Source of the DNA: Thermoanaerobaculia bacterium
Lineage (GTDB): Bacteria > Acidobacteriota > Thermoanaerobaculia > Multivoradales > JAGPDF01
DNA length: 64,000 nucleotides
Direction: 5' to 3'
Assembly (NCBI GenBank): GCA_018057705.1
Contig: JAGPDF010000014.1
Coordinates: 1-64,000 of the forward strand
Part shown: piece by piece, positions 18,139 through 34,170 of the stretch
Layout of the letters: each line of letters begins with the position of its first letter
Position numbering within the stretch: position 1 is the first letter of the stretch
Made by a program: the position numbers and the translations under genes
The notes under the pieces: generated by a model
Database searches by the model: none
Told to the model about the DNA's origin: nothing
Seen by the model: the letters and a program-made list of their open reading frames with translations, nothing else

Positions 18139-18250
18139 AGTCTGGGGCACCCGCCGTTGAGAAGAGGGCCGAGTATAGTCGCCGGGCGCCGGGCTGGTAC
18201 ACGGCTTGCTGCTGGTCGTTCCGAAGATGGTCGAAGCCCGAGGACTGCTC

Positions 18251-27955: not shown

Positions 27956-29107
27956 ATGAACGGCCTCTCGACCGAGCAGCTGCGCCGCTACGCCCGGCAT
28001 CTTTCGCTCCCCGAGGTCGGCGTCGCCGGCCAGGAGAGGTTGGCGGCGGGGAGCGTCCTCATCGTCGGGATGGGAGGCCTGGGCTCTCCGGCTGCGCTCT
28101 ACCTCGCGGCGGCGGGAGTCGGGCGGCTGGGCCTGGTCGATTTCGACGTCGTCGACCGTTCGAACCTGCAGCGCCAGATTCTCTACTCGGAGTCCGATGT
28201 CGGGCGGGGCAAGCTCGAGGCTGCGGCCGAGAGGTTGCAGGCTGCCAATCCCGGAGTCGTGCTCGACCTGCACGGCACCCGCCTCGACCGGACGAACGCC
28301 AGCGGGTTGGTGGCCGGCTACGACGTGGTGGTCGACGGTACCGACAACTTTCCGACGCGCTATCTGGTGCACGACGCCTGCTATTTCGGCGGCCGGCCCT
28401 ACGTCTACGGCTCGATCTTCCGCTTCGAGGGTCAGGCTTCGGTCTTCGCGCGCGGCCGCGGACCCTGCTACCGCTGTCTGTTCCCGGAGCCGCCGCCGCC
28501 CGGCTCCGTGCCGTCGTGCGCCGAGGCCGGGGTTTTGGGCGTGCTGCCCGGCATCATCGGATCGATCCAGGCCAACGAAGCCCTCAAACTGCTGCTCGGC
28601 GCCGGCGAGCCGCTGCTCGGCCGCCTGCTGCTGTTCGACGCCTTGGGCATGCGCTTCCGCGAGCTCGCGCTCCGCCGCGATGCCCGCTGCCCGCTGTGCG
28701 GCGACCAGCCGACGCAGCACGAGCTGGTCGAGTACGACGACGCCTGCGCGCTGCCGGCGGCGGACCCGCCAGCTGGCGGCAGCGAGAGCGCTTTCGAGAT
28801 CGCAGCGACCGAAGTCGCGCGGCGGCGCGCCGCGGGCGAGAGGTTCACCCTGCTCGACGTGCGGCTCGAACACGAGCTGCGTCTGGCGCGGCTTCCCGAC
28901 ATTCTCTGGATCCCGCTGCACGAGCTGCCGCAGCGTCTGGGCGAGGTCCCGCGTGACCGCCCGGTCTACGCCCTCTGTCACAGCGGAATCCGCTCGGCCG
29001 CGGCCACGACACTGTTGCGCGAGCAGGGTTTCGCCGCGGCCCGCAACCTCGCCGGCGGTATCGACGCCTGGAGCCGCGAGGTCGACTCCAGCCTGCCGCG
29101 CTACTGA
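27956..29107 (+). CDS. MoeB/ThiF-family adenylyltransferase with C-terminal rhodanese domain
   Basis: A 383-residue E1-like enzyme. The nucleotide loop GMGGLGSPAALYLAAAGVG (residues about 39-57), LVDFDVVDRSNLQRQILY with the catalytic arginine, the DGTDNFPTRYL motif, and the two zinc CxxC pairs (CYRCLF and CPLCGD) are all present. The last 110 residues are a rhodanese domain with active-site cysteine in ALCHSGIRSAAA. Fusions of this type adenylate and sulphurate the C-terminal GlyGly of sulfur carriers (MoaD, ThiS). A MoaD/MoaE pair is encoded 11.5 kb downstream, so molybdopterin synthesis is a reasonable role. The ATG at 27956 begins the conserved domain. Confidence 0.9.
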   Translation: MNGLSTEQLRRYARHLSLPEVGVAGQERLAAGSVLIVGMGGLGSPAALYLAAAGVGRLGLVDFDVVDRSNLQRQILYSESDVGRGKLEAAAERLQAANPGVVLDLHGTRLDRTNASGLVAGYDVVVDGTDNFPTRYLVHDACYFGGRPYVYGSIFRFEGQASVFARGRGPCYRCLFPEPPPPGSVPSCAEAGVLGVLPGIIGSIQANEALKLLLGAGEPLLGRLLLFDALGMRFRELALRRDARCPLCGDQPTQHELVEYDDACALPAADPPAGGSESAFEIAATEVARRRAAGERFTLLDVRLEHELRLARLPDILWIPLHELPQRLGEVPRDRPVYALCHSGIRSAAATTLLREQGFAAARNLAGGIDAWSREVDSSLPRY

Positions 29108-29154
29108 GCGGGGCTTTTCCACCACCGGCTCCTGCTTCGTCCAGACCCCGGACG

Positions 29155-29167
29155 GACTCCAGGAGTC
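29155..29167. promoter_or_regulatory. palindrome with flanking direct repeats, candidate enhancer (UAS) for the sigma-54 promoter
   Basis: GACTCC-A-GGAGTC is a perfect 6-1-6 palindrome. It is flanked by a near-direct repeat, CAGACCCCGGACG before and CAGACCCGGACG after (about 29142-29179). It lies about 95-105 bases upstream of the sigma-54 -24/-12 element, the distance at which NtrC-type activators usually bind. Confidence 0.4.
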
Positions 29168-29260
29168 AGACCCGGACGAGCGCGCAACCGCGCCGCCGCG
29201 GAATGACCTAAGTCAAGCAGCTACAGTTCTTTAGGCCGCTCCTCCTGGATCGGGATGGAT

Positions 29261-29275
29261 TGGCAGCGGGCTTGC
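29261..29275 (+). promoter_or_regulatory. sigma-54 (RpoN) -24/-12 promoter
   Basis: TTGGCAG-N5-TTGC: GG at 29262-29263 and GC at 29274-29275 with the exact spacing required by RpoN (consensus TGGCAC-N5-TTGC; only the last C of the first box differs). The transcription start would be at about 29287, two bases before the ATG at 29289, so the receiver-protein message would be leaderless. Confidence 0.6.
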
Positions 29276-29288
29276 GATAGTGCCTGGC

Positions 29289-29708
29289 ATGACCCAGGCA
29301 ACCGCCCTTCACGCAGCCGCCGCTCCGCTACCGAACGTTCTGGTCGTCGACGACGATCAGGCGACCCGGGAGCTTCTGGCGACGGTACTCTCCCGTAGCG
29401 GTTGCCGGGTCACTTGTGCCGAAGAGCTCGAGGAGGCGGCCGCCATCCTCGAGTACCGCGACTACGACGCACTCTGTGTCGACCTCGACCTGCGCGGCCT
29501 CTCCGGCCTCGAAGGACTCGAGCTGGTCGGGCAGGCGCACCACCGCTGGCCCCAGCTCAACATCGTGGTCCAGACCGGCAACGGCGACCCCGAGGTTCAT
29601 CGCGCCTGCTTCCGCTTCGGCGCGCGTTCCGTCTTCGTCAAGGGCCGCCCGATCGTCGAGTTCCTGCACCTGATCCAACCACAGAAGGAGGAGGTCGCGT
29701 CATGTTGA
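29289..29708 (+). CDS. stand-alone response regulator receiver protein
   Basis: A 139-residue CheY-like protein. Acidic pocket residues are in LVVDDDQATR, the phosphoacceptor aspartate in ALCVDLDLRGLSG, the switch threonine in VQTGNGD and the lysine in SVFVKGRPI. There is no output domain. ATG 29289 is preferred over GTG 29280 because the sigma-54 promoter ends between them. The next gene, an EAL-domain protein, starts inside its stop region (7-base overlap with a strong AGGAGGAGG site). Receiver and EAL are thus made together and may act as the split form of a receiver-EAL phosphodiesterase. Confidence 0.88.
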   Translation: MTQATALHAAAAPLPNVLVVDDDQATRELLATVLSRSGCRVTCAEELEEAAAILEYRDYDALCVDLDLRGLSGLEGLELVGQAHHRWPQLNIVVQTGNGDPEVHRACFRFGARSVFVKGRPIVEFLHLIQPQKEEVASC

Positions 29709-30553
29709 AGTCGCTGATGGAGCGTGTCATCGAGCCCGGAGCGATCACGGCGTTGTTCCAGCCGATCGTACGCATCCTCGAGGGCGACTCGAAGATCGTC
29801 GCCGTCGAGGGCCTGGCGCGCGGACCGAGGGGTTCGACGCTCGAGGCGCCCGACATTCTCTTCGAGTTCGCCCGGCGCAAGAACGAAGAGTCGGTCGTCG
29901 ATCGGGCCGCGATCTCGTCCATCCTGCGCGAGGCGCGAAAGCTCCCCTCCGACCTCGCCCTGCACCTGAACGTCCACGCTTCGACGCTCGGTCGCGACGG
30001 GCGTTTCGTCGATTTCCTGATCAAGACCAGCTCGAGCCTCGGGATCGAGCTCAAGCGCCTCACGCTCGAGATCGTCGAGCACTCGAACTTCGTGGAGGAG
30101 GACAACTTCCTCGCCGCGCTCGCCGAGCTGCGCGCCGCCGGATGCAGTGTCGCCCTCGACGACGTCGGAATCGGTACCTCGAACTTCCGCATGATGCTGA
30201 TCACGCGTCCGACGATGCTGAAGATCGACCGCTATCTGGTCACCGGCATCGCGAACGACACCTACCAGCAGGCGACGATGCGCGCCATTCGCCTGCTCGC
30301 CGATCAGGTGCACGCCGACCTGGTGGCCGAGGGTGTCGAGACCGAAGAGGACCTCAAGGCACTGCGCACCCTCGGCATCGAGTTCGCCCAGGGCTACCTG
30401 TTCTCGCGCCCGCGCGCCGCCGAAGACCTGATGGCGACCCTTCTGCGACCGCTCCAGGCGGTGGCCCCTGCGGCCGCGATCCCGGCGAGCGCTCCGCGCG
30501 CCGCGGCGTGGTCCAGCCATGGCGGCCTCTCTCTGGTGGCGCAGGCGAGCTGA
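29702..30553 (+). CDS. EAL-domain cyclic-di-GMP phosphodiesterase
   Basis: A 283-residue protein consisting of one EAL domain plus an Ala/Pro-rich tail. Motifs in order: FQPIVRI, VEGLARGP (EGL in place of EAL), HLNVHAST, LEIVEHSN, LDDVGIG (DDFGTG in most), MLKIDRYLV, VAEGVETEED and FAQGYLFSRP. The metal and substrate ligands E, N, E, D-D, K, E and Q are kept, so activity is likely despite the altered signature. It would hydrolyse c-di-GMP to pGpG. It is translationally coupled to the receiver protein and followed by the PAS/HPt-like gene, all downstream of the sigma-54 promoter. Confidence 0.88.
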   Translation: MLKSLMERVIEPGAITALFQPIVRILEGDSKIVAVEGLARGPRGSTLEAPDILFEFARRKNEESVVDRAAISSILREARKLPSDLALHLNVHASTLGRDGRFVDFLIKTSSSLGIELKRLTLEIVEHSNFVEEDNFLAALAELRAAGCSVALDDVGIGTSNFRMMLITRPTMLKIDRYLVTGIANDTYQQATMRAIRLLADQVHADLVAEGVETEEDLKALRTLGIEFAQGYLFSRPRAAEDLMATLLRPLQAVAPAAAIPASAPRAAAWSSHGGLSLVAQAS

Positions 30554-30601: not shown

Positions 30602-31618
30602 ATGATCGAAAGTCTCTGGGCGCGCCGCAGCAAGACCTCCGAATCCTCCAGCGAGAGTCGACAACGAAGATCTGGCGCGGCGCAGAAAGTCCGGCCCGGA
30701 CAGGGCCGCAAGGAGCCGGCGGACCCGACGGCCTGCCTCCAGGCGATGTTCGCCTCCCGCAACCTCCTGGTCGCGATCAAGGATCTCGACGGGCGCTACC
30801 TCGAGGTCAACGAAGCCTACGCCGGCGCCCTGGGGCTCGACCCGGTGGCGGTACGTGGCCGGCTCGATCGCGACCTGCTCACTCCGGACGTCGCCGGCGA
30901 GATGGCCCAGCGCGAGCGTCTGGCGATGCGCGGCGTGGCGCTCAAGCCCGGTCTCGAGGCGTTTGCCGCCGACGCTCCCGTCTACCTGGTCGAGCGTCTG
31001 CCGATTCTCGACAGCCGGGGCGGGCTGGCTGCCGTCTGCCTGATCGCGATGGCATCTCCGGTGGTGATCGGGGATGCCGCAGTGGTGGAGAGGATGCCTG
31101 CCGTGGAGGCAGAAGCCCCATCCGGGCCGCTTCCCGGCAACCCGCCGTCACCCGAAGGCTGCGCAGCGGAGACGCCGCCGCCCGGCGGCTGGCTAAGGGT
31201 CTCCTCGGCTTCGAACCAGCTGGAGTGGGATGCTGCCCTCTACCGGTCGCTCCTGTCCCTGTTCTGCCAGCGCTACGAAGGCTTCGGCGTGCGGCTCGCC
31301 GAGCGCCTCGCCGCGGGCGAGATCGGAGATCTGGCGAAGGACCTCGGCCGGCTCGCCTCGGGAGCGCGCAACCTCGGCGCGATTCCTCTCGCCGGACTCG
31401 CGGCCGGGCTGCTGGCGATCGTCGAACGGGGCGAGATCGAAACCCTCGCCGGGCAACTCGGCCAGTTTCGCCGCGCTCTCGACGCGACGATCCTCGTCAT
31501 CGAGTGCCGGATCCGCTCGACCGCCGAGCCTTTCGAGTGGCCGGCGGCCAGGGAGGCCGCCAGCGGAAACGGGGCGTTCAGCGCGACGACCCTGGTGTCC
31601 GCGCTCGCGGTCGCCTGA
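30602..31618 (+). CDS. PAS-domain protein with degenerate HPt-like C-terminus
   Basis: A 338-residue cytosolic protein. Residues about 45-150 are a PAS domain (FASRNLLVAIKDLDGRYLEVNEAYAGALGL... RLPILDSRGGLAAVCLIAM). A Pro-rich linker follows to about residue 195. Residues about 205-310 have the four-helix pattern of an HPt domain, including GRLASGARNLGAIPLAGLA, which aligns with the HPt signature AHxLKGSAxxLGAxxLAxLA. The phosphoacceptor histidine is replaced by G249 and the lysine by alanine, so it cannot relay phosphate in the usual way. It may be a docking partner for the hybrid kinase or receiver encoded alongside. GGGAG ribosome site present. Confidence 0.75.
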   Translation: MIESLWARRSKTSESSSESRQRRSGAAQKVRPGQGRKEPADPTACLQAMFASRNLLVAIKDLDGRYLEVNEAYAGALGLDPVAVRGRLDRDLLTPDVAGEMAQRERLAMRGVALKPGLEAFAADAPVYLVERLPILDSRGGLAAVCLIAMASPVVIGDAAVVERMPAVEAEAPSGPLPGNPPSPEGCAAETPPPGGWLRVSSASNQLEWDAALYRSLLSLFCQRYEGFGVRLAERLAAGEIGDLAKDLGRLASGARNLGAIPLAGLAAGLLAIVERGEIETLAGQLGQFRRALDATILVIECRIRSTAEPFEWPAAREAASGNGAFSATTLVSALAVA

Positions 31619-31624
31619 CGGCGC

Positions 31625-32776
31625 TCAGGCGGGAGCGGCCGCCGACTCTGGGGTCGGCAGCTCGATCCAGAAGGTCGAACCGCCGGCGCCCGAGTCGAAG
31701 CCGATCGTGCCACCGTGAGCCTCCACCGCCAGACGGCAGAAGGGAAGGCCCAGGCCGACCGCGCGCCGATGCGGGCCGCGGTCGCCGGCGCGGGTGGCGT
31801 ACTTCTCGAACACCCGCGGTCGAAAGTCGTCGGGAATGGCCGAGCCGGTGTCGTGTACCTCGAGTCGCGCGCGGGCGCCATGCGTCGAAGCGACGATGCG
31901 CACCTTGGCGTCGTCCTCGGAGTTGCGCAGCGCGTTGGCAACCAGGTTGGCGATGACGCGGCGCAGAACCTCGCTGTCGGCATGCACGACGATGCGTCCT
32001 GGCGTTGCCGTTTCGAGGACCAGCCGGCGGACGCTCGCCGGGCCGAGTGAAGCGAGCGCCAGGTCGAGGATGGCACGCAGGTCCCGGTCGGCGAGCTGAA
32101 GCGGGAGCTTGCCCGACTCCAGGCGATCGGTGTCGAGCATCGCGTCGACCAGGCGAACCAGGCTGCGGGCGCCGTCGAGCGCCTGTGCCACGTAGTCGCG
32201 ATGGTCCTCGCCGAGCCGGTCGCCGTCGAGATCGAGAAGTTCGAGGTAGCCGCTCACGGCCATGAGAGGCGACCGCATGTCGTGGGCCACCATGTGCACG
32301 AGGTCGTGCCGGAAGTGCTCGACCTCGTGCAGTCGCGCGAGGTTCGCGTCGAGCTCGCGCAGGTGCAGCTCGGCCGCCCGGCGCAGGCGCTCGATCTCGA
32401 GGTGGGTTGCGACACGCACCCGAACCTCCTCGAGGAAGAACGGCTTGGTCACGTAGTCGACGCCGCCGGCGGCGAAGGCCTTCATCTTGCCTTCGATGTC
32501 GCCGAGGCCGGACAGGAAAATGACCGGGGTGGAGGCGAACCGCTCTTGCTCCTTCAGCCGGCGGCAGGTCTCGTAGCCGTCGATGCCCGGCATGTCGATG
32601 TCGAGGAGCACCAGGTCGGGAGGACGCAGGTTCGCCGCGGCAATCGCCTCGAGGCCGCCCGCCGCCTCCTCGACCTCGAAGCCCGCTTCCTGCAGCGCGC
32701 GGGCGAGCATCTTCCGGTGGGCGGGCTCGTCGTCGACGACGAGCAGGCGGTTACCGGCCGCGGGGGGTTCGTTCAC
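31625..32776 (-). CDS. response regulator-histidine kinase hybrid (REC-HisKA-HATPase)
   Basis: A 383-residue soluble kinase with the receiver domain first. The receiver spans residues 10-125 with phosphoacceptor D59 and lysine in YVTKPF. HisKA has H165 in MVAHDMRSPL. The HATPase domain has N-box NLVANALRNSE, G1-like HDTGSAIP and G2 VGLGLPFCRLAVEAHGG. No membrane segment is seen. This order is typical of kinases that respond to phosphorylation by another kinase. The GTG start overlaps the NtrC-type activator's stop by four bases, so the activator and kinase are one operon, convergent with the receiver/EAL/PAS operon. Confidence 0.92.
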   Translation of the reverse strand: MNEPPAAGNRLLVVDDEPAHRKMLARALQEAGFEVEEAAGGLEAIAAANLRPPDLVLLDIDMPGIDGYETCRRLKEQERFASTPVIFLSGLGDIEGKMKAFAAGGVDYVTKPFFLEEVRVRVATHLEIERLRRAAELHLRELDANLARLHEVEHFRHDLVHMVAHDMRSPLMAVSGYLELLDLDGDRLGEDHRDYVAQALDGARSLVRLVDAMLDTDRLESGKLPLQLADRDLRAILDLALASLGPASVRRLVLETATPGRIVVHADSEVLRRVIANLVANALRNSEDDAKVRIVASTHGARARLEVHDTGSAIPDDFRPRVFEKYATRAGDRGPHRRAVGLGLPFCRLAVEAHGGTIGFDSGAGGSTFWIELPTPESAAAPA

Positions 32777-34170
32777 AGGGGCTCCGAAGCGGACTCTTCG
32801 CGCTCGCTGCGGTAGTCCGTAGGTCGCAACCCCCAGGATTTCAGGCGCTGGTAGAGCGTGCTGCGCGGAATCCCGAGCCGGTCCGCGGCGCGATCGACCT
32901 GGCCGTTCTCGAGCCGCAGGATCTGCTCGACGTAGCGCCGCTCGACCTCATCGAGCGATCCCTGGTAGATCTCTCCCGCGGATCGTGCCTCCGGTCGGGT
33001 GCCGGACCGGCGCTCGAGGGTCAGCTGGCCGGCCTCGATCTTCCCGGTGCGGGCGAGGAGCAGCGCCCGTTCGAGAACGTTGTGGAGCTCCCGGATGTTC
33101 CCCGGCCAATCGTAGCGGCGCAACTCATCGACGGCGCCTGGGGCGAGCTTGAGGTGCTTTCCGGTCTCGAAGCCGAGACGGTCGAGAATCGACTCGGCAA
33201 GCGCGGGAATGTCCTCCGGACGCTGGCGCAGCGGGGGCAGGTGGAGCGTGAGCGTATTGATCCGGTAGTAGAGGTCGGCGCGAAAGCGCTTGTCGGCGAC
33301 CGCCTCGGCGAGATTCATGTTGCTGGCCGCCACCAGACGGATGTCGACGCGCCGCTCGACGACCTCGCCGAGGCGGCGAAAACGCTTCTCCTCGACGACC
33401 TTGAGGATCTTCGGTTGCAGGGTGACTTCCGTATCGCCGATCTCGTCGAGAAAGAACGTTCCGCGGTCGGCGGTCTCGAAGAGGCCGGGCTTGGCGGCGA
33501 GCGCGCCGGTGAAGGCGCCTTTGGCGTGGCCGAAGAGCTCGCTGTCCAGGAGCTCGCGCGACAGGCCGGCGCAGTTCAGGTCGACGAAGGCCTGTTTGGC
33601 CCGGGGGCTGTTGGCGTGCAGCCATCGCGCCAGGAGGCCTTTTCCCGTTCCGGTCTCGCCCTGCAGCAGCACCGGACTCTCGGCGCCGGCGACGGTCTTC
33701 GCCTCGCGCTCGAGGTTGCGAATCAAGGCCGACTCGCCGAGGAAGGGCTCCGGTTCGTAGCGTGCGCGACGCACTTCGCCGGCGCGATCCCGGCGCACGA
33801 AGAGCCGCTGCTCGATGAGCCGCCGCACCATCGTGCGCAACGCCGCGAGCTCGATCGGCTTGGTCAGGAACTGCTCGGCACCGGCCTTGATCGAGGCCAC
33901 CGCGACGTCGATCTCGCGATGCCCCGTCAGCACGAGGACGGGAACATCGGGCGCCCCCTCCTTGAGGTAGGGAAGCAGGTCGAGAGCGGTGCCGTCGGGG
34001 AGCTCGTAATCGAGGAGAACGATCTCGGGCCGGAAGTCGACGAAAACAGCTCGCGCGGCGGCCAGGCTCGAGGCGTCCTGGACTTCGCAATGGTCCGCCT
34101 CGAGCAGATGCCGCAACTGCGAGCGGATCATCGGATCGTCATCGACGACGAGAATGCGGGAACCTTCCAT
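32773..34170 (-). CDS. NtrC-family sigma-54-dependent response regulator
   Basis: A 465-residue activator. The receiver domain has phosphoacceptor D54 in VLLDYELPDG and TKPIEL. The AAA+ domain has Walker A GETGTGKG, the sigma-54-contacting GAFTGA loop (HAKGAFTGALAAKPG), FFLDEIGD and YRINTLTLHLPPLRQRPEDI, and LRRYDWPGNIRELHNVLERA. A Fis-type helix-turn-helix (AADRLGIPRSTLYQRLKSWGL) ends the protein. All elements needed to activate RpoN promoters are present. The ATG at 34170 begins the receiver. Its likely partner kinase follows directly. Its best candidate target here is the -24/-12 promoter at 29261. Confidence 0.93.
   Translation of the reverse strand: MEGSRILVVDDDPMIRSQLRHLLEADHCEVQDASSLAAARAVFVDFRPEIVLLDYELPDGTALDLLPYLKEGAPDVPVLVLTGHREIDVAVASIKAGAEQFLTKPIELAALRTMVRRLIEQRLFVRRDRAGEVRRARYEPEPFLGESALIRNLEREAKTVAGAESPVLLQGETGTGKGLLARWLHANSPRAKQAFVDLNCAGLSRELLDSELFGHAKGAFTGALAAKPGLFETADRGTFFLDEIGDTEVTLQPKILKVVEEKRFRRLGEVVERRVDIRLVAASNMNLAEAVADKRFRADLYYRINTLTLHLPPLRQRPEDIPALAESILDRLGFETGKHLKLAPGAVDELRRYDWPGNIRELHNVLERALLLARTGKIEAGQLTLERRSGTRPEARSAGEIYQGSLDEVERRYVEQILRLENGQVDRAADRLGIPRSTLYQRLKSWGLRPTDYRSEREESASEPL

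Follow-up and report, generated by a model that had tools for sequence, protein, structure and literature searches.

A predicted sigma-54-dependent receiver/EAL operon with a start-codon-proximal promoter in a Thermoanaerobaculia bacterium

Sigma-54 promoters are usually followed by leaders that bear a Shine–Dalgarno (SD) sequence. The promoters of the sigma-54/NtrC family carry GG and GC boxes at a rigid spacing, are served by an activator site about 100–120 bp upstream and by an activator with a GAFTGA motif, and occur in genomes with one rpoN gene. All of these characteristics recur at the locus described here, where, unlike in that family, the −12 box lies 13 nt from the start codon and almost no leader is left. 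Surveys of leaderless genes have so far relied on the sigma-70 −10 box. One survey identified Pribnow-like leaderless promoters only (Zheng et al., 2011; PMC3160421), and the leaderless genes of Campylobacter all have sigma-70 promoters (PMC3847290). Pribnow-box leaderless genes (PMC3160421; the −10 pattern of Deinococcus-Thermus, PMC12340547) resemble the present case in a predicted start at or near the AUG, the lack of an SD and an ATG start codon, and the sigma-70 pattern is also found in the genome studied here. The difference is that sigma-54 takes the place of sigma-70, so that the gene would be leaderless and at the same time dependent on an activator and on ATP. The RocR-type REC-EAL phosphodiesterases likewise combine a receiver with an EAL domain that has its catalytic residues, and the PDB matches include RocR (3sy8); in contrast to RocR, REC and EAL are here split into two overlapping genes instead of forming one polypeptide, EGL replaces EAL, and a gene for a PAS protein is next in line. 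Sigma-54-driven leaderless genes were not found described as a class in the open-access papers searched, an absence that is weak evidence when only open-access literature is covered; papers on both leaderless genes and sigma-54 handle the two topics separately.

The window analysed is the whole stretch of 64 kb, and its relevant features are collected in Table 1. The sequence-only reading had proposed an operon of a receiver and an EAL gene, together with a convergent NtrC-type activator that contains GAFTGA, and the domain assignments bear out both. The receiver residues D22, D23, D65, T96 and K118 are likewise present in the orthologue of G005, a genome of the same family. In the EAL protein, E36, N90, E123, D153, D154, K174, E210 and Q230 are invariant across three loci and align with solved EAL structures; we take these eight to be the metal- and c-di-GMP-binding residues of EAL domains, and a protein in which they are intact is a predicted phosphodiesterase. 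The SD of the EAL gene is located inside the receiver gene. The PAS gene is probably the third gene of the operon; by eye, the C-terminal part of its product looks like a histidine-phosphotransfer domain without the histidine. A scan of the genome contigs for the receiver returned only two distant relatives.

Table 1. Features of the locus (positions in the window; a point in the strand column marks a feature without strand).
Feature	Position	Strand	Remarks
Probable enhancer (activator site) GTCCAGACCCCGGAC, consensus GTCYAGANNNSGGAC	29139..29153	+	Conserved in G005 and G016
Palindrome GACTCC-A-GGAGTC	29155..29167	.	Not conserved as a palindrome
CAGACCCGGACG, second, shortened repeat copy	29167..29178	+	Possible second activator contact
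12-mer CAGTTCTTTAGG	29224..29235	+	Common to the G005 subtilase promoter
Sigma-54 −24/−12 promoter TGGCAGCGGGCTTGC	29261..29275	+	One mismatch; site of the G005 orthologue perfect
Predicted leader, about 2 nt	29287..29288	+	From promoter geometry; 0–4 nt by the usual range of start sites
Stand-alone receiver (response regulator) gene	29289..29708	+	PF00072, E = 1.2e-17; no SD
EAL phosphodiesterase gene	29702..30553	+	PF00563, E = 7.7e-43; strong SD AGGAGGAGG
PAS-domain protein gene	30602..31618	+	PF08448; 48-nt gap after the EAL gene
Receiver-HisKA-HATPase hybrid kinase gene	31625..32776	-	Overlaps the end of the activator gene
NtrC-type activator gene	32773..34170	-	Receiver PF00072, AAA+ PF00158 with GAFTGA, Fis-type HTH PF02954

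The motif TTGGCAG-N5-TTGC, previously noted for its RpoN spacing, begins at 29260, and its 15-mer TGGCAG-N5-TTGC, with the −24 GG and the −12 GC at the fixed distance, ends just short of the receiver ATG (29289–29291). The window contains 38 matches to TGGCAC-N5-TTGC with at most two mismatches, against a chance mean of 41.2, so the site required independent support; it is one of only two in the window with a single mismatch. That mismatch (TGGCAG) and the absence of a T after the TTGC count against it. In G005, whose receiver is 56% identical to that of the window, a perfect TGGCAC-N5-TTGC (TGGCACGGGGGTTGC) ends 14 nt 5′ of the orthologous ATG, and this perfect consensus at the same place raises the promoter above chance. 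The window genome has one rpoN gene (PF04552, E = 2.5e-66), which is single-copy in 11 of the 11 genomes tested. The comparison supports a genuine sigma-54 promoter, which would be RpoN-dependent. A second sigma-54-like site, TGGTACACGGCTTGC, with one mismatch, is found at 18195–18209 (+). The ORF that follows has 889 codons and begins like a signal peptide; its first ATG is 17 nt 3′ of the site, and another in-frame ATG lies at 41 nt.

The palindrome GACTCC-A-GGAGTC, flanked by direct repeats, had been put forward as an enhancer candidate. Both repeats (CAGACCCCGGACG at 29142–29154 and the shortened copy CAGACCCGGACG) and the palindrome itself are present, but the palindrome does not keep this role: it is not conserved, whereas GTCYAGANNNSGGAC alongside it is, and perfect 6-N1-6 palindromes are so common in the window (50 over its 64 kb, or 0.16 per 200 bp) that a single one is insignificant. 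CGTCC-N7-GGACG was also rejected as a genome-wide signature, its 24 copies being fewer than the 56 of the reversed control, and the motif was therefore narrowed to GTCYAGANNNSGGAC. This is the core of a 34-nt block common to the window and G005, in which 26 of 34 positions are identical (maximum 22 in 60 dinucleotide shuffles), and it occurs once in the whole window genome. The distance from its centre to the −24 GG is 116 bp, inside the range of about 80–200 bp taken for an upstream site. Twenty loci with the motif were read across nine genomes. A sigma-54 site with no more than one mismatch lies within 300 bp at only four of them, namely the three REC/EAL loci and the gene of a secreted subtilisin-like protease in G005, and the motif-to-site distance is 96–116 bp at all four. 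Since GTCYAGANNNSGGAC was defined from the three REC/EAL loci, only the subtilase promoter is an independent case. The conserved GTCYAGANNNSGGAC is thus probably the enhancer, to which the activator is predicted to bind; it is overlapped by the repeat that has CAGACCCGGACG as its shortened copy. The 12-mer CAGTTCTTTAGG begins 37 nt before the −24 box in the window and 38 nt before it at the G005 subtilase, and no further copy of the full 12-mer was found in 2.27 Mb of strand sequence. At the subtilase gene (contig C169, locus L286), GTCYAGANNNSGGAC and CAGTTCTTTAGG accompany a sigma-54 site that is perfect. Its TTGC is followed at 14 nt by a GTG, but the likelier start is an ATG at 50 nt behind AGGGGGAA.

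The G005 activator is 60% identical to that of the window, with a similar recognition helix, and an EAL gene, a kinase and the NtrC-type regulator are all near the operon, the regulator in the opposite orientation. Directly 5′ of the G005 ATGATG is GGAAGGG, which could be a weak SD and counts against a leaderless message. In G016, a member of another family, a REC-EAL pair (EAL 43% identical to that of the window) lies about 3 kb from an orthologue of the activator (50% identical). The sigma-54 site of this pair, TGGCACACGATGTGC, has one mismatch and stands 64 nt 5′ of the ATG, with an intervening GGAG; the leader of the operon is thus about 50 nt long and includes an SD. As the different leader makes a three-way MAFFT alignment of the DNA misplace G016, motif positions were used instead. 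Because the same operon is leadered in G016, leaderlessness appears to be a variant that the sigma-54 circuit does not need, and sigma-54 control is probably older than the leaderless layout of the window genome and G005. Upstream of a related REC/EAL pair in G012, neither a sigma-54 site nor the motif was found.

Counted by position, a start at 29287 leaves two bases (GC) before the ATG at 29289, as the sequence-only reading had it. Its leaderless or nearly leaderless layout holds as a start-codon-proximal arrangement that is predicted from promoter geometry and kept in G005. Measured sigma-54 starts in Campylobacter lie 8–13 nt past the −12 motif (PMC3847290). The 15 nt 5′ of 29289 contain no purine-rich stretch that could act as an SD, and no usable in-frame start exists downstream ahead of the receiver domain; the sole in-frame start upstream, GTG 29280, precedes any sigma-54 start site. 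The receiver message is accordingly modelled as beginning 0–4 nt 5′ of the AUG. Among predicted genes in 484 kb of the window genome, TANNNT is enriched 6–8 nt 5′ of first ATGs, with 27 occurrences at these three positions for 228 genes and about one per position elsewhere. This peak matches the known sigma-70 leaderless signature (PMC3160421). By the same peak, leaderless genes of the sigma-70 kind are frequent in this genome and leaderless initiation looks ordinary in the lineage; sigma-54 promoters may be able to exploit it, and the layout is hence perhaps tolerated.

The window genome has 29 TGGCA-N6-TTGC sites; where such a site precedes a gene, the leader is in most cases SD-led. The start-proximal ones are the receiver promoter and a site on contig C56, which precedes the gene of a 71-aa proline-rich protein and is likewise at 13 nt in G001, a genome of the same genus. 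Across 58 genomes of the order, the pattern TGGCAC-N5-TTGC-N{9,20}-ATG was matched 173 times, compared with 47 times for the reversed control and 31 times with the spacer one base short. The distances peak at 13–17 nt, with a mode of 14 (99 of 153 ATGs at 13–17), and after ORF checks this range holds 36 of the 46 gene-start-like cases (p = 5e-7). Among these are proteins with signal peptides, response regulators and several pseudopilin-like proteins. Within ortholog groups the distance is held though the spacer diverges, and a family of about 124 aa has 14 nt in each of four genomes. Pseudopilin-like genes of several families have sigma-54 sites 13–18 nt 5′ of the ATG (L090, L188, L195, L216, L253, L258). 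Coding phase was rejected as the cause of the 14-nt peak: it contributes, but it accounts neither for 37 cases at 14 nt vs 8 at 11 in the order nor for the wrong-spacer result. The statement that leaderless sigma-54 messages are unusual agrees with the literature searched but not with this order, in which many conserved genes share the layout; with dozens of such genes among related bacteria, it seems to be real and little described. A second sample was drawn from the phylum to which a record labelled uncultured proteobacterium belongs. Its peak is at 14 nt too, but distances of 11, 14 and 17 are all raised and coding phase contributes, so that its assignment to the same class beyond the order is only suggestive. 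One genome of this sample, G083 (3.3 Mb), has 20 matches (L260–L278), far above its other genomes, and most of the gene-start-like ones are at 13–16 nt.

That the promoter match and its closeness to the ATG are a coincidence is very improbable. The chance-level number of matches with up to two mismatches in the window would fit a coincidence, but the orthologous site of G005 with its perfect consensus, the upstream motif at a fixed distance, and the peak across the order, which is lost with a wrong spacer, would not. If the sigma-54 promoter is real, a further promoter upstream might still provide a leadered transcript, so that the receiver is not mainly translated without a leader. The intergenic region, about 180 bp long and with an AT content above that of the genome, could fit another promoter, and the orthologous G016 operon is leadered; however, no sigma-70-type promoter was found at 29050–29320, and a leadered message would have no SD to use, so we hold this arrangement to be quite unlikely.

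The regulator might also be another NtrC-type protein of the genome in place of the linked one. With 95 candidate activator relatives in the window genome (28 of them scored), other such proteins are likely, and the linked gene is convergent in the window, not divergent. Against this, three genomes with differing gene orders all have an orthologous activator close to REC/EAL, and the enhancer motif is common to the same three. Regulation by some other protein is thus unlikely, and the linked activator probably regulates the promoter.

We consider it likely that the locus as a whole is a sigma-54 operon with an enhancer for the linked activator and a leaderless receiver, as one case of a conserved class. 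The convergent kinase and the NtrC-type regulator would form a two-component pair that senses a signal. The activator would bind GTCYAGANNNSGGAC some 116 bp 5′ of the −24 box, contact RNA polymerase–sigma-54 on TGGCAG-N5-TTGC and open it, and transcription would begin within 4 nt of the AUG. With such a start, the receiver would be made from a message that has neither leader nor SD, whereas the EAL protein would rely on coupled initiation at the SD of its own gene. The receiver/EAL pair would then bring c-di-GMP down, and the operon, of receiver, EAL and probably PAS genes, would be one member of a start-codon-proximal sigma-54 class in the order. We lean towards the view, with less assurance, that such promoters constitute a conserved leaderless class (receivers, secreted proteins and pseudopilins) in the order and probably in other phyla, in which enhancer-dependent transcription is joined directly to SD-independent translation, and which was overlooked because surveys of leaderless genes sought Pribnow boxes only.

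The locus offers a three-part arrangement of activator site, promoter and start codon, and it gives one two-component system a short list of genes that are probably its targets. If the class is real, −24/−12 sites 13–17 nt 5′ of an ATG would be a simple aid to the annotation of start codons and regulons, and SD-independent initiation would be open to genes under tight, ATP-dependent activator control.
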